From Blastococcus colisei (GTDB lineage: Bacteria; Actinomycetota; Actinomycetes; Mycobacteriales; Geodermatophilaceae): a DNA stretch of 64,000 nt. Below are positions 11,136-31,254 of the stretch, in pieces. The stretch is from NCBI RefSeq assembly GCF_006717095.1, contig NZ_VFQE01000001.1, positions 3,100,001 to 3,164,000 of the forward strand, given 5' to 3'. Both the position numbers and the translations under genes were made by a program. Position 1 is the stretch's first letter, and each line of letters opens with the position of its first letter. The notes beneath the pieces are model-generated. The model did no database searches, was not told the DNA's origin, and was given only the letters and a program-made list of their open reading frames with translations.

Positions 11136-12569
<1,434 letters not shown>

Positions 12570-12603
12570 GCGAGTCGAGGTGTTGACCTGCGGTTTTCTG
12601 TAG

Positions 12604-13728
12604 CTAGACACCGCCAGTCCGCACACAGTCCGCACGAGCCGCCAGCACTGCCCCCACGGCGGCTCGTGCGGACTCGTCACTGTCCGGCCACAGATGGCCG
12701 TAAGTGTCGAGCGTCGTCTTGGCGCTCCCGTGCCGGAGCCGGTGCTGCACGACCTTCACGTCGAGGCCGCTGCCGATCATCAGCGAGGCCAGGTAATGCC
12801 GGAGGTCGTGGAAGCGGAACTCCTCCGGTAACCCGTCGACCTTCGGCCGGGTCGCTCGTATCGCGCGTTCGATGGCCCACGTCGAGGACTGCCGCCCAGC
12901 GCCGTCCGTGACGACGTAGTCGCCGCCCCAGCGTGCCACCGCGGCGGACAGCTCGAGCGCGAGCTCGGACGGGATCGGCAACGGCGTCCGGCTGGTCTCG
13001 GACTTCAACGGCTCGCCGTCCCGCTGCTGAACCGGCCTGACGATGCAACGCATGAAGTCGACGTCGGTCACCCGCAGGCCGACGACCTCGGCCGTCCGCA
13101 GACCGACGAAGGCGCCGAGGAGGATCGCCGGCCGCAAGTGCTCGGCGACGGCATCGTGCAGCGCCCACACCTGCTCGGTGCTGGCCACATAGGGACGCGG
13201 CTTACCGGCGCCTGGCGTGGTGCGCCGCGAGCAGGGATTGCGCGCCAGGATGCCGTCATGGACGGCGTCGCTCATCAGCTGCGACAGCCGGTTGTGCAGC
13301 GCATAGACGTAGCTGTCAGCGAGGCCGTCAGCCTTGAGCCTGGCCGTCCATGACTTCACATCCGACGGACGCACCGCAGCCAAGGGACGGTTGCCGAAGG
13401 CGGTCGTGATCTGCGCGATGTGCACCCGCGCTTGCCGGACGGTCCGAGGGCGCCGGCTGGCGTAACCGGACAGCCACGTCTCGCACCACTCCCCCACCGT
13501 CGTCTTGACCGCTGTGGGATGCACGTAAGTCCCCTGTAGCAACTGCGCCGCCTGCTCGTCGAGCCACCGCTGCGCGTCCCGCTTCAACGCGAACGCTTTG
13601 GTGACCTCGCGTCCCGAGGGGTCCCGGAGGTGCGACAGGTAGCGCAGTCCCTTGCCGTCGCGCGCCGTCGGCACGAGCTTCCCGGTGGCGCGGTCCATCC
13701 TGCGCCAGCGGTCGATCACTACGGCCAT
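12604..13728 (-). CDS. Tyrosine recombinase (site-specific integrase)
   Basis: 374 aa phage-type integrase, normal full length. An N-terminal arm-binding domain (VVIDRWRRMDRATGK...) and a core-binding SAM-like domain (TVGEWCETWLSGY..., residues 77-155) precede the catalytic domain. The catalytic set is complete: Arg211 in VGLRTAEV, His307-x-x-Arg310 in HDLRHYLAS, His333 in RLRHGS and nucleophile Tyr343 in LDTYGHLWPD. It catalyses insertion and excision at the glnA end. It lies next to attL and is transcribed towards it, three bases after the excisionase-like gene and in one operon with the relaxase, so integration functions may be tied to transfer. Confidence 0.95.
   Translation of the reverse strand: MAVVIDRWRRMDRATGKLVPTARDGKGLRYLSHLRDPSGREVTKAFALKRDAQRWLDEQAAQLLQGTYVHPTAVKTTVGEWCETWLSGYASRRPRTVRQARVHIAQITTAFGNRPLAAVRPSDVKSWTARLKADGLADSYVYALHNRLSQLMSDAVHDGILARNPCSRRTTPGAGKPRPYVASTEQVWALHDAVAEHLRPAILLGAFVGLRTAEVVGLRVTDVDFMRCIVRPVQQRDGEPLKSETSRTPLPIPSELALELSAAVARWGGDYVVTDGAGRQSSTWAIERAIRATRPKVDGLPEEFRFHDLRHYLASLMIGSGLDVKVVQHRLRHGSAKTTLDTYGHLWPDSDESARAAVGAVLAARADCVRTGGV
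12613..12637. repeat. Left copy of 25-bp tandem-motif repeat (candidate integrase arm site)
   Basis: Two copies of AGTCCGCAC separated by two bases, inside the last codons of the integrase gene and 42 bp from the attL core. The same 25 bp recurs perfectly at 31078-31102, 100 bp inside the attR core and in the same orientation. A shared motif on both sides of the crossover point is what arm-type integrase sites look like. Confidence 0.6.
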
Positions 13729-13731
13729 CGT

Positions 13732-13983
13732 TCAATCCTCCTGCTGTTGCGGGCGCCGCTGGACGTCGACGACGGATGCGGGTGTCCGAGCAACGGTGCA
13801 CTCAGGTGCCGACACAACACCTTTGCCAGAGTCGACCGGCGCCCCGTAGCCGTGCTGGACGTCGATCCAGTCGTGCAGATCGTCGAGGCGGTAGAAGACG
13901 CGGCGGCCGACGCCGAGACTCTGCGGTCCGGGGCCGAGGTGCCGCCAGGTCGGTCTGCGCCGTGTCTCGAAAGTTGTGCTCAT
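13732..13983 (-). CDS. Shortened excisionase-like HTH protein
   Basis: 83 aa. Residues 13-35 (TWRHLGPGPQSLGVGRRVFY) match the second half of the MerR/AlpA-type winged-helix DNA-binding domain of excisionases, closely resembling the complete protein at 29123-29326 (YWRHLGTGPRSFRLGRRVLY). The preceding helix-turn-helix half present there (LAISEAAALLRAPVATLR) is missing here and replaced by MSTTFETRRRP. Its ATG overlaps the relaxase stop (ATGA, 13980-13983) and its stop is three bases before the integrase ATG, the classic xis-int position. It may be a functional minimal protein or a gene that lost its 5' part. The role as recombination directionality factor is inferred. Confidence 0.65.
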   Translation of the reverse strand: MSTTFETRRRPTWRHLGPGPQSLGVGRRVFYRLDDLHDWIDVQHGYGAPVDSGKGVVSAPECTVARTPASVVDVQRRPQQQED

Positions 13984-16900
13984 CGCGGAACGCTCCGGCC
14001 CGGTGCACGCCGGCGAGAAAGGGACGGCACGTCCTCGGATTTCGTGACGTGCCCGGCCCCGGGCGACACGATGTTGCGGCTCACGGCCGCCCGTGCGGCA
14101 GCGTGCTCGGCGTCGTAGCCGGCGCGCCAGGTGTCGTGCTCGCGGGTGAGCTGTTCGGGCGGCAGGGCGCGCACGGCCGGTTCGGCGGTCAGCGCGGTGC
14201 TGTAGGTGCGTGCGTCGGTCAGCAGCTGGGACCTGTCGACGACTTCGCGCTCAAGGTCGGTCAGCAGCGCTACGGGGTGCGAGGCGAAGGCGAGCGGACC
14301 CAGGGGGGTCAGCCGCTCGTCGCGCCGGTGACGGGCGTCGGCCAGGGCACGCCGCGCCTCTTCGGCGGTTTGCCGAGCGGTATCGGCAACCGCATGCAGC
14401 TGCGCCTGCTCCGGATGGCGGTACTCGGCGGTGCGGCGGGCGGCGGTGTCGAACGCCTGCCACAGCGCGGCGCGGTCGTCGTATCCGTCGGCCTCCTGGG
14501 CGAGCTGGGTCGGGTCGGTAGGCAGGTCCGGCCGAAGTGCGCGCCACCGGTCGGCCCAGCCGTTCAGGTGCTGGCTGGCGCGGGCGACGGCGGCCCGGCG
14601 CAGGTGCAGCCGGCCGGGCCCGTCGAGCACGACCCGGGCCGCGACGCGCGCGCTCGGGCGGGCGCCGTCCCAGGCGGTGAGCAGGCTGTCGCGGATGCGG
14701 TCGGCCTCGGCGGCGGCCGCCCTCGTACTGGCCTGGGCCGTCTGCTTCGCCCGCTCGGCGACAAGCGCCGTCTGCCGACACTGGGCGTCGAGTCGGGTGA
14801 GCTCGCCGGCGTGACCGGCCTCTTGTACGACGACTTGGCGCAGGGTGTCGCGCCACAGCTCGAGCAAGGCCAGTTGGTCGGCGCAGCGCTGCTCGACCGA
14901 CCACGCCTGGTGCAGCTCGGCCAGCACCTGCTCCAGTGGACGGGGGCTGGCGTAGGAGGCGGCCTCGGCGGCGGCCTGCTCCGCGGCGTGCGCGGGGCCG
15001 AGGTCGGCCCGGTCGCGGGCGAACACCGCGATCCACTGCTCCCGCGCCTCGTCGGCGTTGGTGGCCACGAGGTGGGCGGTGTTTGCCTGCCGGCCGCGGG
15101 TCATCCCCACGTAGGCGGTCGCGGCGCCGGTGGACTCGCCGACCACCAGATGTGCGGCGGGAACGGTGTCGCCCTGAGCGCCGTGCGCGGTGCTGGCGTA
15201 GGCCAGCTCCACGTGCTCGGCGACGTAGTCGGCGGGCAGCGTCCGCTGCCGCGACCCGGTCGGGGTGACACCGGCTGGGGGAACGTTTCCACGGTCGGGA
15301 GCGGCGGGGGTGACAACGAGCCCGCCGCCGTCGACGGCGGTGACGGTCCAGGTGTCGCGGTTGGCCACACCCATGGTCCGGTCGTTGCGGCGGGTGGCGA
15401 CCCGGTCCCCGACGCTGATCCGCTGCCCAGCCGCGGTGACGACGGCTCGGGTGTCATCGACCCGGCGGTCGGCGACCAGCCGCTCGCGTACGGCGGCGTT
15501 GAGGGCGGCGGCCTGCTCGCGGGTGTCCACCACCACCGCCACCGGTTCGCCCTGCGTGCAGGAGCGGGCGGCGGTCGTGGCCAGCGCCTCCTGCAGCGTC
15601 GCCGCGTCGGGATGCAGCCGGATGTGGCTGCCGGCTACGAGTGCGTCGAACACCGTCCCGGGGTCGGAACCGGCGCGCATGGCCAACGTCAGCTCGGCGT
15701 AGGCGGTGTCCGGCACGGTGTGGCCGGCGCTGTCGGTGCGGATGAAGCGGTGCACGCGGTCCAGGGTCAGCGCCGCGGCTGGGTCGGCGGCACGAACGGC
15801 CAGGTCCAGGACGCCGCCGCGGCCGACCGCGGCCAGCTGCCGGCGGTCACCCAACAACGCCACCCGCACCCGGCACTCGTCGGCCACGGTCAGCAGGGCG
15901 CGTGCGGTGTCCTGGTCGAGCATCCCCGCCTCATCCACCACCAGCAGATCCCCAGCCCGCAGGCGCGCGGCCTCCTCTGGTCCGGTGTAGACAGCGCCGG
16001 TGGCCGCGTCGGCCTGGCCGATCGCGAGGCGGGTCCAAGTGCCGTCGTCCGTCCAGCGCCACCCGTGCTGGTGTACCAGCCACGCCACCGACCCCCCGGC
16101 GGCGCCGACCTCCTGCTGCACGACCTGGGCGGCCTTGAGTGTCGGGGTCACCACCATCAGCCGTTGCCCTTGCTCATCGAGGAGGGTGGCGGTGGTGGTC
16201 AGGGTGGTGGTTTTGCCGGCGCCGGCAGCGCCCTCGACCACCACCAGCTGCCGGTCGCCGGCCAGCGCCGCGACCGCAGCGGCCTGTCCGGCATCCAGCT
16301 GATGCAAGTGGGCCAACGACTCGGAAGGTGAGGTCGGCTCCCTACCGGGCGGCTCGTCCAGATGCCGTGACAGGTCGGCGTCGGTCAGATCGGCCTCAAG
16401 CCCGGCGGCGCGGTCGGCCAGCCGGATGGTCAGCTCGGCCTCGACATCGAGTACCTGCTGGCATGTCAACGCCCGGATGTGCTCGGGCACGCCGTCGCGG
16501 TCCAGCAGTGGAACGCACCGGACCAGAGCGCGGGCGGTGAGGTCCTCGGCCAGCTCGATGCGCACCGCCGGCTCTGCCACTACCCCGGCAGCAGTGATCA
16601 GCTGCTCGACCTCGCCCCGGACATCGGCGGCGTTCCACGCCGAGCGGCCGGCGGCCAGCTTTGCCAGCACCCGGCCGACCGCCCCGTCGCGGTCCAGCGC
16701 CCCGACCGGCGTGGGTGCCAGGTCCACCGGCCGGTCGCGGTCGCGATACCCGAGGGCGGCCAGCTCGCCCATCCACCGGGCGGTGAGGTCCTCCCCGGGC
16801 TGAGGGGTGACCTTGTCGGGGCGGCCGTCGGCCCAGGCGCGGGCGTCCCAGGCGCGGCGCAGCGCCGGTCCCGGCGTTTCGCCGGGGTGCGCCGCGATCC

Positions 16901-17666: not shown

Positions 17667-18028
17667 TGTCAGCGTCGCCCAACGATGGCCAACACGTCAC
17701 CCCTAGAAACGGCGAAAGGCCCCGCGAAGCGGGGCCCGAACGTTTACCGAAGGTAGCATTCGTGCCGTTCTTTGGCGAAGGCCTGAGCTTGCCCGGGAAG
17801 GGCTGGAGTGGCGGGCGTAGAGTCGTCGCGGGCGCCATGGCGTTGGCCGTTTACGGCGATTGCCGACTGAGAGCAGGTCGCGTTCTTCCCGGCTATAGGC
17901 GGGGTGTCCCGGTTGTCCTCCCCGTGCGGGAAGGTTCACCGGGCGGGTCTTACGGGACGGCGGACGAGGGGCACCTGCTCTGTCCTGCGGTGTTCCCGGT
18001 TGGGGTTCGTCCATCGGCACCAAGCCGG
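17667..18028. other. Non-coding region upstream of the relaxase, candidate oriT/promoter
   Basis: About 360 bp without a convincing gene. It holds a perfect hairpin GGCCCCGC-GAA-GCGGGGCC (17718-17736) which on the minus strand is followed by TTTCG, so it could terminate transcription entering from UvrA or act as a leader structure for the relaxase. A shorter palindrome GCCGTTTACGGC (17847-17858) lies further out. MobF oriTs are usually adjacent to the relaxase gene and contain inverted repeats near the nick site, so this is the best place for oriT; no known nic sequence was recognised. Confidence 0.4.
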
Positions 18029-18169
18029 TCACGCCGAGCACGAACGCGTTCTCTGCACGATGTAGAGCAGGAACCGGGGCATCCACGCGTAGTCCCCGCG
18101 CCCGATCCGTTTCAGGGTCCAGAAGTGCTGGTGCGCATCCAGACGGCGTCCTGTCGGGCTCGTGGTCAC
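18029..18169 (-). pseudogene. N-terminal fragment of an amidohydrolase-2 family protein
   Basis: 46 codons starting with GTG 18169, which overlaps the UvrA-like stop (GTGA). RLDAHQHFWTLKRIGRGDYAW is the start of metal-dependent amidohydrolases (fuconolactonase type), including the first metal-binding His-x-His of the TIM barrel. The sequence then diverges (RFLLYIVQRTRSCSA) and stops at 18029; the remaining ~230 residues are absent. The overlap suggests it was once a full gene co-translated with the UvrA-like protein and was cut off by a rearrangement near the relaxase side. Confidence 0.65.
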
Positions 18170-20721: not shown

Positions 20722-21318
20722 GCGTCGTCCCTTCCTGCACCGGATCACGCCCGGACCGGTGGGCGCCCGGTCCCGGATCGCCGGGGCTGGACGGTCCGCA
20801 CTGACGGAGTACCCGTCGTCGTCCTCGCGGAACCCGTCGGATCAGCCCTCGACGGGCAGGACCAGCTGGCGCAGCAGCCGGTCGGCGTCGGCGGCGCCGG
20901 ACTACGGAATCCCGCGAGCGTCGCCGTTAGAGGGTTCGGGACGGGTGCTCTCGGTGGCCAGGTAGCCGGGTCCGTCGTTGCTGACCTTGCTCTCGCAGGG
21001 TTGGCGGTCGTCTTGCTGGGCAACATCCCGCGTTGCGCCGACCCGGGTGAACCCGTGGCATGTGACTGGGGGTCTCAGACTGATGGCAGGCCGAGCGGTA
21101 TGTCTGGCGCCTTCGGGACGGAGCTGTCCGGGCACCAGACACCGGGCAGGTAGCGGCTCCGCGGCACCGTCCACGTGGAGATGCCGCAGATCAGCGCCGA
21201 AGAATGCGGACCCGTTCGGTTCGACAGCGCGTCCTCAATCGTCGCTTCCGCGCACCGGCCGCGGCCGCGGTCGGCGGACCTTGGGCTGATCCACGCCGCA
21301 CCGTGGGCTCCACCTGTT
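20722..21318. other. Intergenic cargo region with a short coding relic
   Basis: About 600 bp with no intact gene. On the minus strand 20904-20839 encodes SGAADADRLLRQLVLPVEG and a stop with almost every third base G or C, which looks like the C-terminal end of a lost gene; the family is not recognised. The rest (20905-21318) has no recognisable coding or repeat structure. The UvrA-like promoter must lie close to 20722-20800. Confidence 0.35.
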
Positions 21319-21627
21319 CTACGTGGGCTGCTTCTCCGCAACGACATCGAGCTGCTCGATCGTGGGCTCCTCAAAGAGCTCACCCGTGTTCTCACCGAGC
21401 GCTTTCGCAACCTCACCCGAGAGGTGCGCCTGGCGCCCGTCGTCGTCGGGAAAGGCGTCGAAGATCCCGAACGAGGAGGGTCCGAACTGGATCCCGAACC
21501 ACCTGACGGTCTTCGGCTCCCCTTCGACGATCGACAACCCCTGGTTCAAGAAGGCGCGGACGTCTTCCTCCCTGCCGGGCAGTGCTTCAAGGCGTACCAG
21601 AAGGGCTTTGCTGACCTGTGTTGACAT
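21319..21627 (-). CDS. Antibiotic biosynthesis monooxygenase (ABM)-like small protein
   Basis: 102 aa from the ATG of MSTQVSKALLVRLEALPGRE; the longer upstream frame is rich in Arg and not protein-like. The pattern LLVRLEALPGREEDVRAFLNQGL, then VRWFGIQFGPSSFGIFDAFPDDDGRQAHLSGEVAKAL, is the ferredoxin-like ABM / YgiN fold (dimeric alpha+beta barrel). Such proteins include cofactor-free quinone monooxygenases and heme-degrading enzymes; which applies here is not visible. It lies downstream of the aldo/keto reductase with a 102-base gap, last in the minus-strand redox cluster. Confidence 0.7.
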   Translation of the reverse strand: MSTQVSKALLVRLEALPGREEDVRAFLNQGLSIVEGEPKTVRWFGIQFGPSSFGIFDAFPDDDGRQAHLSGEVAKALGENTGELFEEPTIEQLDVVAEKQPT

Positions 21628-21729
21628 CTTGGATCTCTCTCTCCTTGCTCGGTTGGCGTCGTGATGCGGGAAGGGTCGGGAGAGCGGCCACATTTTGCGA
21701 GGCGCCCCGACAGTCGGAGGTGGCGGAGA

Positions 21730-22578
21730 TCAGAGCATCTCTAGCGGCACCTTACTGGACGGCGGTGGGAACATCCGGTCGAGCTGCTCCAGCTCCGCCG
21801 GGCTGAAGCTGATCTCCATCGCGGCGCGGTTCTCCATCACCCGCGCCGGGGTGGAGGCTTTAACGACGGCGAAGAACTCGGGGAGTCGCAGCACCCAGGC
21901 GAGGGCCAGCTGGGCCGGGGTCACTCCCTTTGCGCCAGCCATGTCGCGGACCGCGGGATGCTCGAGCAGCCGGCCGTGGTCGACCGGGGAGTAGGCCATC
22001 AGGGGCATGCCGGCCTCGCGGCATCTCGGGAGAAGGTCGTACTCGAGTCCGCGGCGGGCGAGGTTGTAGAGCACCTGATCGGTCTGCACCCGCGCTCCGC
22101 CCGGCACTGAGGCCAGCTCGTCGAGGTCCGGGGCGTCAAGATTGCTGACGCCCCAGCCGCCGATCAGCCCTGCCTGCTGCAGTTCCTCGAACCCCGCCAC
22201 CGTCTCGGCCAGCGGCACTCGCCCGCGCCAATGCAGCAAGTACATGTCGAGGTAATCGGTGCCCAACCGCCGCAGGCTGGCCTGGCAGGCCTCCACCGTC
22301 CCTCGTCGCGTGGCGTGGCTGGGCACCACCTTGCTGACCAGATAAACACTGTCCCGCCGCCCTGCGATGGCCTCGCTGACGAGTTCTTCGGCGGCGCCGT
22401 CGCCATACATCTCGGCGGTGTCGATCAGGATCAGGCCGCTCTCGATGCCCGTACGCAGGGCGGCCACCTCGGTGGCCCGCCGGGCGGACTGCTCACCCAT
22501 GTACCAGGTGCCCAGGCCCAGTGCCGGGACGGTGCCCCCGTTGGGCAGGGACACCGCGCGGATGGCGGGTGCGGTCAT
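21730..22578 (-). CDS. Aldo/keto reductase
   Basis: 282 aa from ATG of MTAPAIRAVSLPNGG; an upstream extension is possible but has no family similarity. It is a NADPH-dependent (beta/alpha)8 reductase of aldehydes and ketones. The catalytic tetrad is complete: Asp and Tyr in DTAEMYGDG, Lys in VSKVVPSHA and His in YLLHWRGRV. GWGVSNLDAPDL and the late KASTPARVMEN segment are the usual cofactor-site motifs. It is part of the aldehyde-related cargo block with the zinc dehydrogenases further right. Confidence 0.92.
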   Translation of the reverse strand: MTAPAIRAVSLPNGGTVPALGLGTWYMGEQSARRATEVAALRTGIESGLILIDTAEMYGDGAAEELVSEAIAGRRDSVYLVSKVVPSHATRRGTVEACQASLRRLGTDYLDMYLLHWRGRVPLAETVAGFEELQQAGLIGGWGVSNLDAPDLDELASVPGGARVQTDQVLYNLARRGLEYDLLPRCREAGMPLMAYSPVDHGRLLEHPAVRDMAGAKGVTPAQLALAWVLRLPEFFAVVKASTPARVMENRAAMEISFSPAELEQLDRMFPPPSSKVPLEML

Positions 22579-22953
22579 GACGGGTGCTCCTCGGGGGGTG
22601 CGGGTAGCGAGACAACGAGGGTTCGAGCAGTCCTCGACGGTTGGCGTGTCTGTGGTCCCGGGCCGCTTGTGCCGCGCGATCCATGGTGGAGCGGCGGCAG
22701 CACCCGTCGGATCGGACGGCAAGGCAGTAGGCGATCGTCACGGCACGCTGCGGCCGGTTTCCTTCGCGGGATGCGGGACGTCGGCAGCTGGCACGTCGAC
22801 CCGGCGATGCGTCCCCTCGTCGAGCGCTACACCGCCACGCGGCTGGCCGCCGCCAAGCCCGGCGCTTACGTCTACCAGGCCCTGACCGCCCGGCGCCGGC
22901 CCGCCGAGCGGCTCGGCGCCGGGCCCCGGGGCCGGTCCGCCCGTCGGCGCGCC
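22579..22953. other. Gap between aldo/keto reductase and dehydrogenase fragment; possible plus-strand coding relic
   Basis: No intact minus-strand gene. On the plus strand, 22772 to about 22930 (MRDVGSWHVDPAMRPLVERY onwards) has strongly G/C third positions for about 50 codons, unlike random frames, and then degenerates into Arg-rich sequence. The family is not recognised. It may be a fragment of a lost gene. Confidence 0.3.
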
Positions 22954-23283
22954 TCACGCCCCCGGACGGAAGACGGCACGGACGCACCCGTCCTCCTTGT
23001 TCTTGAACATCTCGTACCCGCGTGGCCCTTCGTCCAGGGGCATCACGTGGGTCGCCAGGTGCTCGGTCCTGACCTCGTCCCGGCTCATCAGGTCGAGGAT
23101 CTCGGGGATGTAGCGGTGCCCGTGCTGCTGGGCGCCGCGCAGCGTGAGCGCCTTGTTCATCACCGCCCCCATCGGGAACTTGTCCACCAGGCCGCCGAAC
23201 ACGCCGAGGGCGAACACCGTCCCGCCCTTGCGGCAGGCGTAGATGGCTGCCAGCGACGCCACGCTCCCCAGCGCGCTCGTCAC
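22954..23283 (-). pseudogene. C-terminal third of a zinc-dependent alcohol dehydrogenase (MDR)
   Basis: About 109 codons matching the end of zinc-dependent MDR dehydrogenases: AIYACRKGGTVFALGVFGGL, PMGAVMNKALTLRGAQQHGH, then the conserved C-terminus ending in GYEMFKNKEDGCVRAVFRP. The zinc-binding and Rossmann parts are absent. The frame opens with a GTG that overlaps the PfpI-like stop (GTGA at 23283-23280), so the fragment may still be translated. It is clearly different from the full dehydrogenase at 23857-25011 and so comes from a second, deleted gene rather than a duplication. Confidence 0.75.
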
Positions 23284-23855
23284 GAGCCACCGCCCGCGCC
23301 GGCGGTCTGGGGCGCCCGGGCGAACTCCTGCACGATCCGCTCGCAGAACGCCGGCAGGTCGTCGGGCGACCGGCTCGTGGTGATGTTGCCGTCGGTGACG
23401 ACCTGCTCGTCGACCACCTCGGCCCCGGCGTTGCGCAGGTCGGTGCGGATGCTCGGGAACGAGGTCAGCCGCCGGCCCCGGGCGACGTCGGCCTCCACGA
23501 AGTTCCACGGGCCGTGGCAGATCGAGGCGACCGGCTTGCCCGACTGCACGAAGTCCCGGACGAACTGCACCGCGGCGGGTTCCATCCGCAGCTTGTCCGG
23601 GTTCACCGTCCCGCCGGGCAGCAGCAGCGCGTCGTAGTCGTCGACCGAGGCGGCCCCGACCAGCCGGTCGACGCCGAAGGAGCCGGCGTCCTCCAGGTCG
23701 TTGTTGCGGGCCAGGATCTCGCCGCTGGTGATCGAGACGACGTCGGTGCGTGCGCCGGCGTCGTCCAGGGCCTGCCGTGGCTGCTCGAGCTCGACCCGCT
23801 CCACGCCGTCGGCGGCGAGGATGGCGACCCGGCGTCCGTTCAGCTCCCCGGCCAC
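23280..23855 (-). CDS. DJ-1/PfpI family protein (type 1 glutamine amidotransferase-like)
   Basis: 191 aa. RRVAILAADGVERVELEQPR at the start, then DALLLPGGTVNPDKLR, and the nucleophile elbow PVASICHGPWNFVEADVARGR with Cys near residue 115. This matches PfpI/YhbO-type proteins associated with stress, proteolysis or deglycation of methylglyoxal-modified molecules. The start is two bases from the end of the formaldehyde dehydrogenase-like gene, so they are cotranscribed. The pairing suggests reactive-aldehyde defence, but this is inference. Confidence 0.88.
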   Translation of the reverse strand: MAGELNGRRVAILAADGVERVELEQPRQALDDAGARTDVVSITSGEILARNNDLEDAGSFGVDRLVGAASVDDYDALLLPGGTVNPDKLRMEPAAVQFVRDFVQSGKPVASICHGPWNFVEADVARGRRLTSFPSIRTDLRNAGAEVVDEQVVTDGNITTSRSPDDLPAFCERIVQEFARAPQTAGAGGGS

Positions 23856-23856
23856 G

Positions 23857-25011
23857 TCAGCTCCCCGCCATCGCCGGGTGCAGGACGACCTTGGTCCAGC
23901 CGTCGTCTCGGGCGTCGAAGTGCTGGTACGCCTCGACCGCCTGATTCAGAGGCAGGTCGTGGGAGACGATCCAGGAGGGCTTGGCCTTGCCGGCCGCGAT
24001 GAGGTCGCGCAGCCGGCGGTTGTACTTCTTGACCGGGCATTGTCCGCTGCCGATGGTCTGGCCCTTGAGCCAGTGCAGGCCGTAGTCGATGGCGACCTTC
24101 CCTTGCTTGGCGTCCTCGTCGGGGCCGCCGGGATCGGCCGGCAGGAAGACCCCGACCACGCCGATGCCGCCGGTGAAACGCACCGACTGGATCAGCCGGT
24201 TCAGCGTCATGGCCGGGTCCTCGGTGCCCTGCGGGTCATGGGCCTGGTAGCCCACGCACTCACATCCGCGGTCGGCGCCCAGGCCCATGGTCTGGTCGAG
24301 CACGAACTGCACCGGGTCGGTCTTGGAGTCGTCCACCGGGATGGCGCCGATCTGTTCGGCCAGTCGCAACCGGTCGGGGTGCCGGTCGACGACCATCACC
24401 TTGGCTGCGCCCTTGATCGTGGCCGACAGCGCGGCCATCAGGCCCACCGGGCCAGCGCCGTAGATCACCACCGAGTCGCCGGGGATGACCCCGGCCATCT
24501 CGGTGGCGTGGTAGCCGGTGGGGAAGATGTCGGCCAGCATCACGTAGTCGTTCTCCTTCTCCTGGGCGTCTTCGCCCAGGCGGAGGCAGTTGTGGTCGCC
24601 GTAGGGCACCCGCAGCATCTCGGCCTGCCCTCCTGCCCACGGACCCATTGCAGCGAAGCCATAGGCCGCGCCAGCCGCTGCCGGGTCCGGCTGGGTGGTC
24701 AGGCAGTAGTTGGTCAGGCCGCGCTCGCAGTTCTTGCAGAACCCGCAGGAGATGTTGAACGGCAGGACCACCCGCTCGCCGACCTTGACCTTGTCGACGC
24801 CGTCGCCGACCTCGATGACTTCACCGAGGTTCTCGTGGCCGAACCAGCGGCCGGTCTCGAAGTCGGTCCGGCCCTCGTACATGTGCAGGTCCGAGCCGCA
24901 GATGTTGGTGGCGGTGACCCGCACGAGGACGTCGGTGGGCCGTTCGATCTTCGCGTCCGGGACGTCGGTGACGCTGACGTCGCGCGGTCCGTTGTACACG
25001 ACTGCCTTCAT
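23857..25011 (-). CDS. Zinc-dependent dehydrogenase, glutathione-independent formaldehyde dehydrogenase-like
   Basis: 384 aa medium-chain dehydrogenase. Catalytic zinc ligands are visible in NICGSDLHMYEG (Cys) and RWFGHENLGEV (His-Glu), and the structural zinc site in CGFCKNCERGLTNYC. The long insert after it (QPDPAAAGAAYGFAAMGPWAGGQAE) and the Rossmann segment VVIYGAGPVGLMAALSA are typical of the FdhA/Pseudomonas formaldehyde dismutase group. It likely oxidises formaldehyde or related aldehydes with tightly bound NAD. It is first gene of the minus-strand redox block and is divergent from the LysR gene at 25186, which probably controls it from the shared 174-bp intergenic region. Confidence 0.9.
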   Translation of the reverse strand: MKAVVYNGPRDVSVTDVPDAKIERPTDVLVRVTATNICGSDLHMYEGRTDFETGRWFGHENLGEVIEVGDGVDKVKVGERVVLPFNISCGFCKNCERGLTNYCLTTQPDPAAAGAAYGFAAMGPWAGGQAEMLRVPYGDHNCLRLGEDAQEKENDYVMLADIFPTGYHATEMAGVIPGDSVVIYGAGPVGLMAALSATIKGAAKVMVVDRHPDRLRLAEQIGAIPVDDSKTDPVQFVLDQTMGLGADRGCECVGYQAHDPQGTEDPAMTLNRLIQSVRFTGGIGVVGVFLPADPGGPDEDAKQGKVAIDYGLHWLKGQTIGSGQCPVKKYNRRLRDLIAAGKAKPSWIVSHDLPLNQAVEAYQHFDARDDGWTKVVLHPAMAGS

Positions 25012-25185
25012 GGGAAGCCTCCTGTTGGGGCGTGCTGGGGAGCCTGCGACCCAACGGGGTCCGCCGGCTGTTCGGACTGGTCCTGATCTCGGCTACGGCC
25101 CTCCTGCCCAGTCGTGCGGTGGTCATGGCCCACTGGCAGGACGCGTTTCCTCCGGCCCATCAGCCAGGGGCTAACGTGCCTGGTC

Positions 25186-26076
25186 GTGGAGCTCCGCCAG
25201 CTCAGATACTTCGTTGCCGTAGCCGAGGAACGGCACTTCGGGCGCGCCGCCCGCAGGCTGCACATCGCTGCGCCGTCGCTGTCCCAGCAGATCCAGGCAC
25301 TCGAGCGGGATCTGCACGTCACCCTCTTCGAGCGCAGCCCGCGCAGCGTGACGCTCACGCCGGCCGGGGAGGTGCTCCTCGAGCACACCCGCATCCTGCT
25401 GGAGCGAGCCGACCGTGCCCGCGCTGAGGTCCGCTGCGCCGACGGGCGGCACCGGCACCTGGAACTCCGCGTCGTCTCCGCCGTCGAGTACGTCCTGGAC
25501 GGGGCGCTGCACCAGCTGTCCGGACCGGCCTCCCAGCTAGAGGTCATCACCGCGACGGCTACCGGCAAGGAGGCGATCCGCGCGGTCCGCGAGGAGAGCG
25601 CCGACGCCGCGGTCGTCTGGGTCCGCTCCGCCCAAGAGCAGGACCTGTCCGGGACGGTCCTCCGCCAGGTGTCCGTGCACCTGGCGCTGCCGGCCGGGCA
25701 CCGACTCGCCGCCTCGCCGGCGATCCGGGTCGCCGAGCTCGCCACCGAGGCAATCGTGCTGTTCCCCCGCGACCTCTTCCTCAGCATCTGGGAGCACATC
25801 CTCGGTCACCTGCTCCCCGCCGGGATGTCCCGACCCGGCCAGGTGCTCACCCAGCCCGACCTCATCAACGCCCCCGAAGCCATGCTGCGGTCGGTCGCCA
25901 CCGGCCACGGGGTGGCTCCCGTCGCCCCGGCGATGGCCGAGCACCTGGCGGTCGCCGGAACCGTGATCCGTCCCCTCGACCCGCCCCTGCTGATCCCCGT
26001 CGAACTCGTCTGGCGCGAGCCGCCGCACCCCGGGCTGGAGCGCGTCATCGCCATGCTGGCCGGCGCCGGAGGGTAG
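25186..26076 (+). CDS. LysR family transcriptional regulator
   Basis: 296 aa. The start is taken as GTG 25186 because it gives the canonical beginning VELRQLRYFVAVAEERHFGRA. The N-terminal winged HTH (residues 1-60, AARRLHIAAPSLSQQIQALE) is followed by an effector-binding domain of normal length. It is divergently arranged to the formaldehyde dehydrogenase-like operon, the standard layout for a LysR regulator and its target. The inducer is unknown, plausibly an aldehyde. Confidence 0.92.
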   Translation: MELRQLRYFVAVAEERHFGRAARRLHIAAPSLSQQIQALERDLHVTLFERSPRSVTLTPAGEVLLEHTRILLERADRARAEVRCADGRHRHLELRVVSAVEYVLDGALHQLSGPASQLEVITATATGKEAIRAVREESADAAVVWVRSAQEQDLSGTVLRQVSVHLALPAGHRLAASPAIRVAELATEAIVLFPRDLFLSIWEHILGHLLPAGMSRPGQVLTQPDLINAPEAMLRSVATGHGVAPVAPAMAEHLAVAGTVIRPLDPPLLIPVELVWREPPHPGLERVIAMLAGAGG

Positions 26077-26107
26077 GACGAACGGGGACGTAGAAGGCGC
26101 TGAATGG

Positions 26108-27328
26108 TCAGGAGCAGTCGACCGGCCCGATCGCGGGGCGTCGCCAGAGCTCCCAACCGATCAGGAGCACGCACACGACGGTCAGTCCGGCGAGCGCCGC
26201 CAACGCCGGCACGACCACAGCGACCGGGATCAACGCGGCAGCCCCCACCGCCGCAAGGAGGCGACCGGCGGCCAGCTGATGGTGATCGCGCCACCGGTAG
26301 GCCACGTCACCGACGAAGAACAGCGCGACGCCACCGGCCAGGGCGACGGCGGACAACAGCGCGAGCGGCTCGGCCGCACCCGCGACGGCTTCGTGGACCC
26401 CGAGCGCGAAGAACACCACCCCGGCTACCAGCGGCAGGTGCAGGTAGCTGTAGGAATCGCGCGCCAGCCGGGCCCTCTCCCGGTTCCCGGTGGCGCGCAA
26501 CCGCCGTTCGGCCCCGCCGCGGAGATAACCGAAGTAGGACCACCACAGGCCGGCCGCGATCAGCACGGCGAGGAGGACGGCTGTCACCACGCTCGGCCGC
26601 CCCAGCGAGTCTTCGGCGCCGGCGCCCACCTCGACGATCGCCTCACCCAGCGCGATGATGACGATGAGCCCGTGCCGCTCCACGAAGTAGGCCGGCGCCA
26701 CAGCCCAGCCGGCGGTACCGACCAGTACCGGTCCGGAGAAGTCGATCACCACGGCCGCGATCCACAACAGCTCCCGCCCCGGTGTGTCGACGAACGCGGC
26801 GGCCACCAGTAGCGCCGGCCCGCCGAGAAGGGTGGGGACGAGCCGCAGCGCGGCCGCACCCACATTCGCCTCGCCCCGCACGTCGAGAGCCAGCAGCGCC
26901 ACGTGGATCAGTCGCACCGCCAGGAATGCGAGCCCGAACACGAGCGCCCGTGCGCCGAAGGCCTGCGGCAGCGCGACCGCGGCGACCAGCATCGCCGCCA
27001 TCGCGAGGAAGATCAGCAGGCGGTGCGCGGGCCCGGCGTGGTCGGAAGTGTTGGTCAGCCAGGCGTAGCAGACCCACGCCCACCACACGGCGGCGAGCGC
27101 CAGGAGCCCCCGCCCGAAGCCCGCCCACGAGATGTCCGCCAGCATCAGGATCGTCACCTGGGACATCGCGTAGACGAACACCAGGTCGAAAAACAGCTCC
27201 AGCGTCCCGACCGACCGGTCCGCCGTCTCCTCCGGTGCCTGCTCAGCCGCACCGCCGCCGTCATCGCCGCGCATACTTTGCTCCACACCCACCTCGCCGA
27301 CCTCGACGTTGCGTAGCCCAGGCCACAT
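26108..27328 (-). CDS. Low temperature requirement A (LtrA) family membrane protein
   Basis: 406 aa with about twelve hydrophobic helices from residue 40 onwards. The family opening RSVGTLELFFDLVFVYAMSQ is unmistakable, and FVERHGLIVIIALGEAIVEVG in the middle is the second conserved block. ATG 27328 is preceded by GGAGGG at six bases. The function of LtrA proteins is unknown; the name comes from a Listeria mutant. It is convergent with the LysR gene and is probably cargo. Confidence 0.92.
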   Translation of the reverse strand: MWPGLRNVEVGEVGVEQSMRGDDGGGAAEQAPEETADRSVGTLELFFDLVFVYAMSQVTILMLADISWAGFGRGLLALAAVWWAWVCYAWLTNTSDHAGPAHRLLIFLAMAAMLVAAVALPQAFGARALVFGLAFLAVRLIHVALLALDVRGEANVGAAALRLVPTLLGGPALLVAAAFVDTPGRELLWIAAVVIDFSGPVLVGTAGWAVAPAYFVERHGLIVIIALGEAIVEVGAGAEDSLGRPSVVTAVLLAVLIAAGLWWSYFGYLRGGAERRLRATGNRERARLARDSYSYLHLPLVAGVVFFALGVHEAVAGAAEPLALLSAVALAGGVALFFVGDVAYRWRDHHQLAAGRLLAAVGAAALIPVAVVVPALAALAGLTVVCVLLIGWELWRRPAIGPVDCS

Positions 27329-27427
27329 AACGCGCCCTCCGGGCGACGATCACCTTCCACAGTGGGAACCGCCAGCGGAGCAGCTCGTGGTGGTCAACGA
27401 GAACGAGAGCCCGTTCCACTCAGGGAT

Positions 27428-27452
27428 CCCCCTGTGGGACACCAGGAGGGGG
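27428..27452 (-). terminator. Hairpin between the unknown 229-aa gene and ltrA
   Basis: CCCCCT (27428-27433) and AGGGGG (27447-27452) pair across a 13-base loop in the 151-bp gap between two minus-strand genes. It probably ends the upstream transcript. A second palindrome (ATGGGCCCCCAT) lies at 27459-27470. Confidence 0.4.
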
Positions 27453-27479
27453 CAGTGATGGGCCCCCATGCCTGATCCT

Positions 27480-28169
27480 TCAATAGAGGTAGCGGTCGAT
27501 GCCGGAGCCGAGGGCCCACATGCGATTCATTCGGTCGGCCGTGCGGGCGTAGGCGGCTTCCTCGGCCTCACTGAGCGTGCAGTCCGTGCCGGGCGGCCTG
27601 GCCCGCAGCCGGGCGATGAGTAGGCGGGTGTCGTATGTCGCGGCGAGGTCGAGCAGGCCGGCCAGCCGGGCGAGCAGCGAGACCAACCCGGCGCGGCCGG
27701 CCCAGCGGTAGGTGTCGCCGAGCTGCCCCGCGTGGGCGTCGACCACCTCGGCGATGTCAGCGTCGAGGGCGGGATGGCCGAGGGCGGCCGCGGTGGCCGA
27801 CAGCAGGTCGATGTCGGCGGCCGGCATGGTCAGGGCGGTCAGCGGCGCGTGCTCGTAGCAGCCGTCCGGAGCGAACAATCGGCCCCGCCCAGCTCCGAGG
27901 GACTGCGTCGGCGCCAGGGCGGTGAGCAGGCGCTGCACGGCGTCGAGGGCGACCCGATCGGCCAGCGGCGCCGGCAGCCGCAGCGGCTCGACGTCGGCGG
28001 CCGGACCCTGTCGTTCCTCGTACTCCCACAGACCGAGGCACAGCAGCACCTCCTCCACCGCGCGCAGCGGCACGAGCAGCTCACCGTCGAGGTCGACGAC
28101 CAGCACGGTTCGCTGCCCCGCCGCCGCTCCCCCGGCCGGTGCAGGCTGACCGGCTGCGCGCTCAGCCAC
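27480..28169 (-). CDS. Unknown protein, element cargo
   Basis: 229 aa, not recognised. The first ~20 residues are Ala/Gly-rich, then RTVLVVDLDGELLVPLRAVEEVLLCLGLWEYE looks like a small alpha/beta start with an acidic VDLDGE turn. The rest is Leu/Ala-rich and probably helical (LLSATAAALGHPALDADIAEVV), ending GSGIDRYLY. No signal peptide or membrane helix. Its ATG overlaps the end of the 218-aa gene by eight bases, so the two are translated together. Codon use is normal for the genome. Confidence 0.7.
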   Translation of the reverse strand: MAERAAGQPAPAGGAAAGQRTVLVVDLDGELLVPLRAVEEVLLCLGLWEYEERQGPAADVEPLRLPAPLADRVALDAVQRLLTALAPTQSLGAGRGRLFAPDGCYEHAPLTALTMPAADIDLLSATAAALGHPALDADIAEVVDAHAGQLGDTYRWAGRAGLVSLLARLAGLLDLAATYDTRLLIARLRARPPGTDCTLSEAEEAAYARTADRMNRMWALGSGIDRYLY

Positions 28170-28818
28170 CGGCGGACCACCGCTCGAGGGCGGACCGGCA
28201 GGTCACACCGGTGGCCCGGCCGATAGCGGGCCACGAGGCCCCGGCCGCCCGCGCGGCGTACACCGCGTCGTCTAGGGCGCAGGCAGCGGCGGCCTGCCGG
28301 ACCGCGGCCTGCTCGACGTCTTCAAGGGTCTGCCAGGGCTCGATGTGGCGGCGCCACTCCAGCATGACCCGCTTCTCGTCGTCGGCCGCCAGATCGACCC
28401 ACGGGCCGGTGACTGCTAGCCGCCGCGATGCCGGGTCGGCCAGCTCCGGTGCGGGCACCCGGGTCCAGTGGGTGCCGCGCCAGCCGCAGGTGCAGCCGGC
28501 GACCCAGCCGACCACCTCCGCGGCCGGACGCCACTCCTCCGCTTCGTCGATGACCTCCCGACGGACCTGACCGCCGGTGTGATGCACGATCCCGTCGCCG
28601 CCGATGACCGCGCCGTCCTGCCAGGCGCCCTCGACAGTGCAGCCGTCGCGGTAAGTCAGCCGCACCCGGTCGCCGTTCCGCGGCCCGTCGTCGCGTCGGC
28701 GGGCCACCAACACTCCGCGGGCGCTGGTGCTCCCAGCGCCTTGCGCGCCGTCGGCGAAGACCGGCACCACCCAGCCCTCGTGCGCCTGGTCACCCACAAC
28801 CGGGCCCATCCGTCCCAT
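28162..28818 (-). CDS. Unknown protein with C-terminal HTH-like segment, element cargo
   Basis: 218 aa from ATG 28818, chosen because GAGGAGG precedes it by four bases (the ATG at 28854 has no such site). The C-terminal stretch ALDDAVYAARAAGASWPAIG followed by RATGVTCRSALERW reads as a helix-turn-helix of the kind found in small hypothetical proteins of actinobacterial plasmids and integrative elements. A CTCGWRGTHW segment has two cysteines that could bind metal with partners elsewhere. The N-terminal half (RVRLTYRDGCTVEGAWQDGA) is beta-rich. A DNA-binding role together with the overlapping 229-aa protein is possible but unproven. Confidence 0.65.
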   Translation of the reverse strand: MGRMGPVVGDQAHEGWVVPVFADGAQGAGSTSARGVLVARRRDDGPRNGDRVRLTYRDGCTVEGAWQDGAVIGGDGIVHHTGGQVRREVIDEAEEWRPAAEVVGWVAGCTCGWRGTHWTRVPAPELADPASRRLAVTGPWVDLAADDEKRVMLEWRRHIEPWQTLEDVEQAAVRQAAAACALDDAVYAARAAGASWPAIGRATGVTCRSALERWSAGG

Positions 28819-29122
28819 CGGCCCTCCTCGTGCTGCCTCGTGCTGCGTCGTCACCGCAAGCTGGTGATGTCGGTCCCGTCTCGATCAGCGTCGGTCGACC
28901 TTGCCCAGCCGAGACGCCGCGTGCCTGAATCTGGGGACGGCGACGAGGGCTGTGGACAGCGCTCCGCTGCGGCTGTTCCCGTCGGGGGCACCGAGGGCTG
29001 CGTAGCCTCCCGGTCCGCTCCGGTCGCGCGTAGCCGGCTTGGCCGGCGCGTAGGACTGAAGGACGACGGAGGAAGAGCGCCGACGCCCCCCAGCACATGA
29101 CTACGGACGGGCGGCGACCGGT
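28819..29122. other. Non-coding gap in the element
   Basis: About 300 bp between the unknown pair and the HTH gene. Frames in this stretch are Arg/Ser/Pro-rich without protein character. No repeat or clear hairpin was noticed. It presumably holds the promoter of the 28818 operon. Confidence 0.3.
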
Positions 29123-29326
29123 TCAGCGGCGAGCGTCGACCCAGGCGTAAAGATCCTGGCGCCGGTAGAGAACGCGGCGGCCGAGGCGGAAGCTGCGCGG
29201 TCCGGTACCGAGGTGACGCCAGTACCGCAACGTGGCGACGGGAGCGCGCAGCAGTGCGGCTGCCTCGCTGATCGCGAGCAGGTCGGGCTGCTTGTCGACG
29301 GCGTGGTCGACGGTGGGGTCGGGCAT
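29123..29326 (-). CDS. Excisionase/AlpA-type HTH DNA-binding protein
   Basis: 67 aa containing a complete MerR-like winged HTH: LAISEAAALLRAPVATLRYW (helix-turn-helix) followed by RHLGTGPRSFRLGRRVLYRR (wing) and DLYAWVDARR. This is the size and form of recombination directionality factors and small element regulators. It is the intact counterpart of the shortened protein at 13732-13983. Being far from the integrase it may serve as regulator or as the functional Xis. Confidence 0.85.
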   Translation of the reverse strand: MPDPTVDHAVDKQPDLLAISEAAALLRAPVATLRYWRHLGTGPRSFRLGRRVLYRRQDLYAWVDARR

Positions 29327-29738
29327 GGCTGACTCCAGGCTGGGCAGGCGGTCACGGGTTCACTCGTAGAAGGCGCCGTTTCACGGCTCTTGGTGACAGC
29401 TCACAGCCAACTTCTCCAGAACTTCTCCCGTGAAGCTCCGGTCCTCCTCCGGTTCCTCCTGCCGTCTTGCTTCTGTGTCTCCGAGCAACGGCGTCCTGCG
29501 GGAGGCCATTGACCGTCGCCCGTCACGCCGGGACCGCGGTCAGCGCCTCGGCCTGCTCGCCGATCCGCTCGTGCAGCGCGGCGAACTTCGCCGCGCAGGC
29601 GGCGGCGCCCAGCCCGAGACCGCACCTCATGAGGGAGTCGTTCAGGATGCTGCTCGTGCGACAGATGACCGCGCCGGTGGCGTCACACCCGCGGCACCGG
29701 GACGAAAGACGAGTCCGCACGGACCTCTCGGAGGCGAG
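29327..29738. other. Non-coding region with GGAGAAGTT repeats
   Basis: About 410 bp between the divergent HTH and DUF3800-like genes. Close to the HTH start (29409-29430) the minus strand has two copies of GGAGAAGTT separated by two bases, which could be an operator. A minus-strand frame 29630-29523 (ending AALHERIGEQAEALTAVPA) has coding-like codon use but no ribosome site and no recognised family. Confidence 0.35.
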
Positions 29739-30269
29739 TTGAGCGCCCAGGCCTTCGTCGACGAGTCCGCCCGCGGATCGCGGTACCACGTCTGCATCGC
29801 GGTTGTTCTGGATGGGGACGTCGATGAACTGCGCCGCCTCGTCCGTTCATTCTGTCTGCCCGGGCAGCGGCGGTGGCACTTCGTCACCGAACGCGACAGC
29901 CGCCGCCGGCAGATCCTCGACGCGTTGATCGGGAGCGGACAGATCTCGGCGTTGGCGTTCTCCGGCAAGGGCCGCGATCACGATCTACGCGCCGAGAGCT
30001 TCCGCCGGATGGTCGCTGCACTGGTCGACCGTGGCGTGCACCGACTGGTCATCGAGTCCCGGCAGGGGCGAGACCAGCGTGACCGGCAGGTCCTGGTCGA
30101 GGAGCTGCATCGCCTGGGCGACCCGGTGCTGCAGTATGTCCACCTGCCGCCGAGCGGCGACCCGCTGCTATGGGTCGCCGATGCACTGGCCTGGAGTCAC
30201 TCGGCCGGAGGCGCGTGGCGACAGCGCATCGCGACGATCACCAGTGCCCAGGACGTGACCGGCCGGTAG
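29739..30269 (+). CDS. DUF3800-like protein
   Basis: 176 aa. TTG 29739 is chosen as start because GGAGG lies just upstream and the protein then begins with the family-typical AQAFVDESARGSRYHVCIAVV. The Asp-Glu in VDES near the N-terminus and a later LLWVADALAWSHSAGG fit the RNase H-like DUF3800 family, which is common on mobile elements and phage defence-like loci. The reaction is unknown. Upstream frame to 29430 is not protein-like. No partner gene is visible. Confidence 0.65.
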   Translation: MSAQAFVDESARGSRYHVCIAVVLDGDVDELRRLVRSFCLPGQRRWHFVTERDSRRRQILDALIGSGQISALAFSGKGRDHDLRAESFRRMVAALVDRGVHRLVIESRQGRDQRDRQVLVEELHRLGDPVLQYVHLPPSGDPLLWVADALAWSHSAGGAWRQRIATITSAQDVTGR

Positions 30270-30699
30270 AAACCGCGGAGCCCGGCTGCTCACCGTCCGG
30301 AGAGGAGCCGGGCCCACTTCCTGAAGCTCAGCGCAGCAGGCGACTCCAGTGTAGGGGTGACCGGCTCGGTCGCCAAGCGGCCGACGGAGCCCCTGATCGG
30401 CGCCGCCCCCCGCCTCAACCACGACTCCCCGGTGACCCGATGGCGATGAGGCGCTGAGGGTGTTCGCCCACATTCCTGGCCGCTCCCGCGCAACCGGCCT
30501 CTCCTGGCTGCGGCGGATCGGGGGAAGGGTGGGCCGCAGGCCCATCCCGAAGGGACGCGCAGCGCCCTTCCGGCGAGCCGTTGCAGCCGGCATCCTCGGC
30601 CGGCTGCGGGGCGGCACCGCCGGTACGGGAGGAAAACCGGAGATTGGCGAGCACGCTTCTCCCGTGCAGCACCGCATCGGATCGGCTTTTCCTGTCCTC
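30270..30699. other. Decayed non-coding region
   Basis: About 430 bp without an intact gene. Minus-strand frames in 30290-30500 (ending ESPAALSFRKWARLLSGR) have some protein character but cannot be assigned. The rest looks like sequence debris. Confidence 0.3.
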
Positions 30700-30975
30700 C
30701 TGCAGGTTGAGCGTCCGGTGCCCGACCGGGGGCTCCCCCGAGGCATCGAAGGGCGGTCCTTCGGGGACCGCATCGGTGCGGATGCGCGCGTCGAACTCCC
30801 GCAGCGCAGCGGCCAGCCGGTCCAAGTTGTCGCGGGTCGTCGCCCGGGTGACGTCGACGTCACGGGTGAGCCGCGTCGACCAGTGCATCCGGGCGGGCGT
30901 TCACAGGTGAACACGTACGCGACGCCGTGGCGTTCGAGCACCGCCAGGATCGGCTCGGCGTCGACCTGGTCCGGC
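30700..30975 (-). pseudogene. Frameshifted nucleotidyltransferase (AbiEii-like/DUF1814-type) relic
   Basis: Two frames together resemble an N-terminal nucleotidyltransferase domain: VDAEPILAVLERHGVAYVFT (about 30975-30915) and then, after a shift, STRLTRDVDVTRATTRDNLD continuing to about RTLNLQ (30888-30700). The STRLTRDVD segment is the region of the catalytic Gly-Ser...Asp-x-Asp motif. The usual glycine-rich joint between the two parts is lost and the downstream domain is missing. Such proteins occur as toxins of abortive-infection pairs and as solitary genes; this copy is dead. Confidence 0.6.
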
Positions 30976-31077
30976 TCGGGACGCCTGCGTCGCTCACCGC
31001 TGGGCGGATCGGCTGGCCGTCCACCAGGGCGATCGAGCACGGGCGCGCTTGGCGTCGAGGGCCACGCGGAGGCCGTC

Positions 31078-31102
31078 GCCAGTCCGCACACAGTCCGCAC
31101 GA
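31078..31102. repeat. Right copy of 25-bp tandem-motif repeat (candidate integrase arm site)
   Basis: Identical to 12613-12637, again two AGTCCGCAC units two bases apart, but here outside any intact gene. It lies 100 bp before the attR core. The right copy could also be a leftover of an integrase 3' end, because the reverse strand spells RADCVRTG as in the integrase tail, but similarity stops at the repeat edges. Confidence 0.6.
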
Positions 31103-31202
31103 TTTCCAATCGAGCCCCCGATGGACCAATCCCTTCCAACATCATAAGCGCAGGTCAGAGCCGTGTTCCATCGAAGACCATCGACCACCAGTCACGCGGG
31201 GA

Positions 31203-31230
31203 GAGTTCGCGATGTACTACGACATCTGAG
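31203..31230. other. attR: right attachment core
   Basis: Second perfect copy of the 28-bp glnA 3' end, including the codons for EFAMYYDI and TGA, but with no glnA upstream of it. It marks the right end of the element. The following 150 bp align without gaps to the sequence right of attL. Confidence 0.88.
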
Positions 31231-31254
31231 TCCTACCCGGCGTTGACCTGGGGT

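Follow-up and report, generated by a model that had tools for sequence, protein, structure and literature searches.

A probable integrative mobilizable element at the 3' end of glnA in Blastococcus colisei and the relatives of its integrase

According to a 2017 review, the known canonical integrative mobilizable elements (IMEs) carry MobP, MobQ, MobV or MobC relaxases, none carries MobF or MobH, and only one was found in Actinobacteria (PMC5704250). Actinomycete integrative and conjugative elements (AICEs) possess a replication protein and a translocase of the FtsK/SpoIIIE type, and those with a tyrosine integrase lie overwhelmingly in tRNA genes, apart from the pSLS group (PMC3218068). For Mycobacterium abscessus, a third study places 16 of 23 tyrosine-integrase bacterial attachment sites (attB) over tRNA or tmRNA genes; glnA is absent from its main text (PMC10654092). 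We analyzed a 64-kb window of the Blastococcus colisei genome (64,000 nucleotides of contig NZ_VFQE01000001.1, numbered from its first letter), in which the glutamine synthetase gene glnA is followed by an integrase gene, a relaxase gene and cargo genes. We hold it highly probable that these genes form an 18.66-kb IME inserted into the end of glnA by its own tyrosine integrase. No literature we found names glnA as an integration site, including the available text of PMC12884075, PMC10654092, PMC5704250, PMC3218068, PMC11706625, PMC8190616, PMC11389934 and PMC11755657; an earlier listing in TIGER/Islander tables is possible.

A sequence-only reading of the window had proposed that a perfect 28-bp direct repeat of the glnA end, spaced by 18,660 bp, brackets the element. 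Both copies of the repeat (attL and attR, Table 1) are exact at this spacing, and the last glnA codons and stop codon lie within attL. The pair is the joint-longest direct exact repeat of the window, for which base composition predicts about 5e-6 chance pairs of 28 bp. The other 28-bp exact pair (12665 and 31325) links the integrase gene with an integrase relic to the right of attR. When the whole genome (5.16 Mb, four contigs) was searched with up to three mismatches, the only exact copies of the core were those of the window, and a third copy with three mismatches was found on contig C2. A tRNA gene as the insertion target was rejected, since the window has none; a search of 10500-35000 against Rfam returned zero families at the gathering score.

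The same arrangement, which the sequence-only reading proposed to seek in related genera, recurs there. We searched 112 Geodermatophilaceae genomes for the integrase and found a homolog at E<=1e-20 in 89. Eighteen genomes hold at least two cores on one contig. Seventeen of these were analyzed; G032 was left out because its second core has three mismatches and its contig lacks glnA. In 15 of the 17, an integrase gene of the clade defined below lies between the paired cores, on the glnA side, and these elements measure 5.3-19.1 kb. G030 (2.4 kb, no clade integrase between the cores) and G087 (30 kb, none near) were dropped from this set. The full integrase gene of G001 lies 2 kb inside the element, behind a C-terminal piece of another integrase, and that of G098 is broken. 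At base 28 the two ends disagree in 10 of the 15 elements, so a shared core of 27 bp or less, ending with the stop codon, is probable, which corrects the 28 bp proposed earlier. Mismatches between attL and attR cores fall at positions 4, 5, 9, 12, 15 and 26-28. If the crossover is common to all of them and inside the identical block, it would lie at about positions 16-25.

Repeats beside the cores also tie the two ends of each element together. The segment 12612-12637, with its tandem AGTCCGCAC, is copied exactly at 31077-31102. AGTCCGCAC occurs eight times in the 64 kb, seven times beside the two att sites and once at 29712; the integrase relic holds one of the seven att-flanking copies and one of the two inverted copies. 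All 15 elements carry a tandem pair of 8-mers with an 11-bp period 45-50 nt past the stop codon, and a matching pair recurs 120-133 nt left of the attR core. Over the 16 bases compared, the two ends have no mismatch in 11 elements, one in three and two in one, a match equaled by 0 of 200 control segments per element. The unit differs among elements (AGTCCGCA, AGTCCCCA, GCTCTCAA/G), yet it agrees between the ends of any one element. Tandem repeats on both sides of the element's attachment site (attP) are the layout expected of arm-binding sites of a tyrosine integrase, and we predict this role for them. A segmental duplication of the glnA end around unrelated content might account for G030, where two glnA ends stand 2.4 kb apart with no clade integrase in the interval. 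The matched arms and the glnA-side position of the integrase in 15 of 15 elements argue against a duplication, as does the host DNA that continues to the right of attR in G001, G006 and G015, and we give this explanation next to no credence. As a separate observation, the three-mismatch core on C2 (0.96 Mb; L003 1378-1540, G000 C2:147401) has tandem AGTCCCCA at -122/-111 and is followed by CTGACCTGCGG; it looks as if a related element, not located at glnA, has one of its borders here.

Unoccupied sites in relatives support insertion at the glnA 3' end, as the sequence-only reading held. A glnA match at the chosen E-value was present in 13 of 16 genomes of the genus. In eight of these 13 loci the 1.5 kb past glnA is free of integrase matches (L100, L102, L104-L109), L101 and L103 keep integrase relics, L110 and L111 break off before glnA is complete or right at its end, and the remaining locus is the window's own. 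To the right of attR in G001, G006 and G015, about 1 kb aligns to the DNA that follows glnA in integrase-free species; in G023, about 1 kb aligns to the right border of another element. Three points count against this reading: most other right flanks match integrase-free loci only over a terminator-like stretch of 40-60 nt or a shorter one, the right flank of G109 has no match to such loci, and the window's own right flank matched integrase relics. Partial repeats of GACATCTGA, spaced about 14-16 bp, follow the core in L100, L163 (G006 attR) and L178 (G060 attR) and are possibly scars of repeated recombination.

The right side of the window locus has a history of its own. Six of ten genus members compared (G024, G025, G028, G029, G031 and G038) match the window through glnA (to 12569-12571) and, after a gap of 0.6-2.4 kb, again from 34957 onward. 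In G030 about 10 kb separates glnA from this match, and G037 begins to match only at window 38449. No match of the 34957 type was found after glnA in G027 (18 kb fetched) or G026 (contig ends about 4 kb on). The order in these relatives implies about 22 kb of extra DNA at the window locus rather than 18.7 kb, and the native right flank appears to start near 34,300-34,957 and not at 31,231. The sequence-only reading had treated fliD as the native right neighbor of glnA. This no longer stands: the DNA from 31231 to about 34,300, which includes an integrase fragment and fliD, is probably the relic of an older related element at the same site. No fliD match lies between glnA and the 34957-type sequence in the genus relatives compared. 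A fliD match is present in 15 of the 16 genomes of the genus. The window copy shares 90% identity with one of G038's two fliD genes and likewise with a copy in Blastococcus saxobsidens (L097) that has an integrase relic beside it, at a distance of about 6 kb from glnA. The position of fliD beside an integrase relic in both the window and L097 makes it probable that the older element carried the gene and that fliD is not native here. A junction joining glnA to 31231 would then restore the older occupied state, not the ancestral site. Three genomes have a solitary fliD of about 90% identity (window 31491-32927, L097 8520-9881, L154 13502-14869); in two of the three, the window and L097, this flagellar cap gene appears as a passenger beside an integrase relic near glnA.

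We define here a glnA-specific integrase clade. The window integrase (Int) falls within it, with the core at the glnA end. Thirty family loci were listed for examination. Among the 24 listed loci at about 54% identity or more (L004-L027), 22 have glnA, L027 has the core without glnA, and L011 has neither within its flank; none of six listed loci near 40% identity (L028-L033) has glnA. A scan of public genomes found glnA on the fetched DNA at 52 of 65 integrase loci, and the clade neighbors glnA in more than one actinobacterial family, with loci in Streptomyces, Mycobacterium, Kribbella, Demequina, Janibacter and Planotetraspora among others, and at some of them (such as L056, L064 and L072) the integrase lies 1-2 kb off glnA. 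An integrase tree of 52 rows places 43 on one side of a branch with an SH-like approximate likelihood-ratio test (SH-aLRT) value of 99 and nine opposite; it is a quick tree with long branches and no bootstrap, omits matches covering fewer than about 300 residues, and needs eight changes of the glnA label. Loci with glnA account for 36 of the 43 clade integrases. The other seven are Leucobacter L070, Nocardioides L093 (partial core) and five IMG/VR records. The gene end beside the Leucobacter integrase (L070 10970-11400) is one that we take to be nucS-like, and for this integrase, which stands outside the glnA set, a switch of target is possible. Int is 95% identical to its counterpart in G019 while glnA is 90% identical, and the best integrase match elsewhere in the genus is a partial one at 66%, which points to horizontal spread. 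Every best integrase match among 713 phage and 86 plasmid records is below 60% identity.

The gene content bears out the earlier claim that the repeat brackets an integrase, a MobF relaxase and cargo, each of which matches the expected protein families (Table 1). The int gene is convergent with glnA. Int contains HxxR and a C-terminal Tyr, which we read as the motif residues of a tyrosine recombinase, and MobF contains an HRHLH motif. Seven TrwC-domain relaxases occur in the genome. The excisionase-like call needs correction. The open reading frame (ORF) beside int seems to be N-terminally truncated: its helix-turn-helix (HTH) domain lacks the N-terminal part and matches HTH_17 at E 0.15 only, and G019 has the same truncated form. 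The intact excisionase-like gene is a different ORF, near the right end. A candidate "Xis2" at 29101-29355 was rejected as being in the wrong reading frame. The aldo/keto reductase, DJ-1 protein and alcohol dehydrogenase suggest an aldehyde or oxidative-stress cargo. In a PADLOC search of 10 element proteins, only the UvrA paralog gave matches (ATPase-like), and the other nine gave none. MobF genes also occur at four further places in the genome (G000 C1:193493, C1:534871, C1:4051857 and C2:15809; open frames of 943-1237 aa), each with an integrase match no more than about 3-16 kb away; a tRNA-Lys gene adjoins the integrase near 518345.

Table 1. Features of the glnA locus in window coordinates
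Feature	Position	Strand	Evidence
glnA, type I glutamine synthetase, 477 aa (477 codons)	11136-12569	+	PF00120 E 2.8e-135, PF03951
attL core, left copy of 28-bp repeat	12543-12570	+	exact repeat
int, tyrosine recombinase, 374 aa	12604-13728	-	PF00589 E 5e-16, phrog_1 integrase
P' arm: tandem AGTCCGCAC at 12616 and 12627 (11-bp period), inverted copy at 12666	12616-12635	+	predicted integrase arm sites
Hairpin with 17-bp stem, overlapping int 3' end	12627-12674	.	fold; 130-nt z = -4.9
Degenerate excisionase-like ORF	13732-13983	-	HTH_17 E 0.15 only
mobF, MobF/TrwC relaxase with RecD-like helicase, 1228 aa	13980-17666	-	PF08751 E 6.1e-51; NF041492 above cut-off
Cargo: UvrA paralog, 860 aa	18166-20748	-	TIGR00630 above cut-off
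Cargo: small conserved ORF	21319-21693	-	phrog_6411, function unknown
Cargo: aldo/keto reductase	21730-22722	-	PF00248 E 5.5e-51
Cargo: DJ-1/PfpI family protein	23280-23855	-	PF01965; TIGR01382 above cut-off
Cargo: zinc-type alcohol dehydrogenase	23857-25011	-	PF08240/PF00107
Cargo: LysR-family regulator	25114-26076	+	PF00126
Cargo: LtrA-family membrane protein	26108-27328	-	PF06772 E 2.4e-87
Right-end module: ORF, 229 aa	27480-28169	-	homologs in G015, G019, G083
Right-end module: ORF with C-terminal HTH, 230 aa	28162-28854	-	phrog_686 E 9e-6; homologs in G015, G019, G083
Intact excisionase-like gene, 67 aa	29123-29326	-	HTH_17 E 6.3e-9
Right-end module: ORF, 279 aa	29430-30269	+	89% identical homolog in G019
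P arm: tandem AGTCCGCAC at 31081 and 31092	31081-31100	+	repeat match to P' arm
attR core, right copy of 28-bp repeat	31203-31230	+	exact repeat
Relic of related integrase 3' end, outside element	31231-31379	-	31203-31379 79.8% identical to 12543-12718
fliD homolog	31491-32927	-	PF07195/PF02465
Native right neighbor of glnA, class-I glutamine amidotransferase domain	34957-35685	-	PF00117; within 2.4 kb of glnA in 6/10

Like a canonical IME, the element has a recombinase with attL/attR repeats and an empty site, and a relaxase of its own; no mating-pair formation system or coupling protein was found in the element ORFs scanned. It therefore looks like an integrative mobilizable element, where "mobilizable" is inferred from the relaxase. 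An AICE or other integrative and conjugative element (ICE), moving by its own TraB/FtsK or type IV secretion system (T4SS) apparatus, would agree with the actinobacterial host and the int-xis-relaxase layout, and coupling-protein genes are present in the genome. However, FtsK/TraB, Rep, coupling-protein and VirB4 models gave no match in the element ORFs scanned, where small ORFs were not all included, so neither the translocase nor the replication initiator of an AICE was seen there. The two TraG-D_C coupling-protein genes lie elsewhere, 0.18 and 0.55 Mb away on C1 (the genome-wide search took in TraG-D_C, not VirB4 or FtsK models). We regard self-transfer as improbable. The TraG-D_C genes mean that a conjugation helper for a mobilizable element could be present.

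The element might instead be an immobile remnant, integrated site-specifically and now fixed with its cargo. This alternative shares its origin with the IME that we favor, and the two overlap in probability. The degenerate excisionase-like ORF adjoining int weighs on the side of a remnant, as do the older relic directly beside the element and the frequent decay of integrases at this site: only the last part of the integrase is left by glnA in L082, L083, L085, L089 and L092, and at 14 of 47 unique occupied loci the glnA-adjacent integrase starts after residue 40 (truncation, frameshift or contig end). On the other hand, Int and MobF are open over 374 and 1228 aa and keep their motif residues, the second HTH_17 ORF is intact, the cores are exact, the arms are identical, and a 95% identical int occurs in other genera. 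We consider an immobile remnant unlikely, though it is the strongest of the alternatives.

We examined whether insertion replaces more than the coding end of glnA. In G048 the stop codon is TAG at attL and TGA at attR, and the preceding 25-bp block is identical. With a crossover inside the identical block, the glnA stop codon of G048 would have come from the element, an indication from one relative, not proof. Later mutation would also explain the difference, and TAG ends the core in G013 and G062 as well, where no clade integrase was seen beside it.

For transcription ends, we folded the 130 nt past the stop codon and called a segment structured at z<=-2. The element-supplied DNA at attL is structured in 42 of 47 unique loci (median -4.6), compared with 22 of 23 native glnA sites (median -4.1), 0 of 16 segments left of attR, 3 of 16 segments formed by the last 130 nt of glnA ahead of the core, and 2 of 45 random segments within elements. 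The attL segments differ from random ones (p 4e-15) and not from native ones (p 0.43), though the loci are akin and these p-values overstate independence. The native set was reduced from 34 glnA loci to 23 by removing 11 by eye after an 80-nt test, for element-like downstream DNA or an integrase further off. In the window, a smaller hairpin precedes the 12627-12674 stem, and the relic version of this stem has an A-T pair swapped for G-C. These folds suggest that attL hairpins may replace the displaced glnA terminator. Several results count against this view. A z<=-2 is also found for 11 of 46 segments taken from within int; the first 80 nt past the stop are structured at 23 of 47 attL sites versus 26 of 34 comparison loci (relic sites included); and the window's own 80-nt fold is not significant (z -0.6). 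The hairpin also shares sequence with the int 3' end and with the inverted arm site, and its role may instead lie with int or attP. A terminator within 80 nt in every element was rejected on the 80-nt counts, and the 130-nt result was used in its place. Four loci with glnA and no clade integrase (L116, L118, L121 and L131) have TGACCTGC after glnA, a motif also found in many element attL sites; their terminators may be element-derived scars.

We propose the following model. attB would be the last ~27 bp of glnA, into which Int integrates the element. Crossover within the core would leave glnA with last bases, a stop codon and hairpins from the element, in place of the displaced terminator. Int is predicted to bind the core and, on either flank of attP, the tandem arm sites of 8 to 9 bp; with the HTH_17 protein (29123-29326) directing the reaction, excision would yield a circle of 18,660 bp. 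Judged from its sequence, MobF would act as a relaxase that nicks a putative origin of transfer (oriT). Export of the strand would fall to a conjugation machine encoded outside the element, which would thus be mobilized in trans. An earlier related element would have used the same site and left the relic from 31231 to about 34,300 with fliD.

The relatives differ in what they carry besides the integrase. Homology to mobF is present in 9 of the 15 glnA elements (partial in G048 and G098) and was not found at E 1e-6 in G006, G023, G045, G077, G079 or G109. We scanned 10 selected proteins each from G006, G077 and G023 for phage genes. Those of G006 include a major head protein, an additional integrase and one protein with matches to minor-tail and terminase-small families; G077 encodes a head maturation protease, a tape measure protein, a replication initiator and likewise a second integrase; G023 encodes a tape measure protein. 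Seven IMG/VR records were found and six tested, of which four have a capsid match above the cut-off; in L187 (103 kb) the capsid need not belong to the same element as the integrase. No phage head, tail or packaging gene was found among 10 proteins of the window element, whose PHROGs matches are to integrase, HTH and unknown-function families only. On balance we lean, by a narrow margin, toward a broader view in which one integrase clade recurrently uses the actinobacterial glnA 3' end with MobF or phage head/tail modules, its attP supplying the whole gene end as a cassette (last bases, stop codon, terminator-like hairpin) and its passage leaving integrase fossils and passengers such as fliD. 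If this is true, glnA, a nitrogen-assimilation gene, keeps both its coding end and its transcription end after insertion. As an attB the glnA end is defined and widely conserved, and it belongs to a protein-coding housekeeping gene; together with the mapped integrase, excisionase-like protein and arm repeats it could serve as an integration system. The locus also makes two questions testable: whether mobile elements rebuild the terminator of a target gene as well as its coding end, and how relaxase-bearing and phage-like elements share one integrase clade.

We compared the window element with these described systems. The capsid-bearing relatives of its integrase (G006 and some IMG/VR records) resemble the mycobacterial phage-inducible chromosomal island (PICI) candidates (PMC10654092), whereas the window element encodes a relaxase and, as far as its proteins were scanned, no phage structural gene. 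It shares with AICEs a tyrosine integrase, an excisionase-like protein and integration at a gene 3' end, but it targets glnA and showed no transfer genes of their kind (PMC3218068). With canonical IMEs it has in common its own integrase and relaxase, a specific site, and the lack of a detected coupling protein or T4SS; it differs from them in that its relaxase is MobF (PMC5704250). Because MobF homology occurs in 9 of 15 glnA elements and further MobF genes lie near integrases in the genome, our results suggest that MobF mobilizable islands, absent from the canonical IMEs of the 2017 review (PMC5704250), are not rare in this family.

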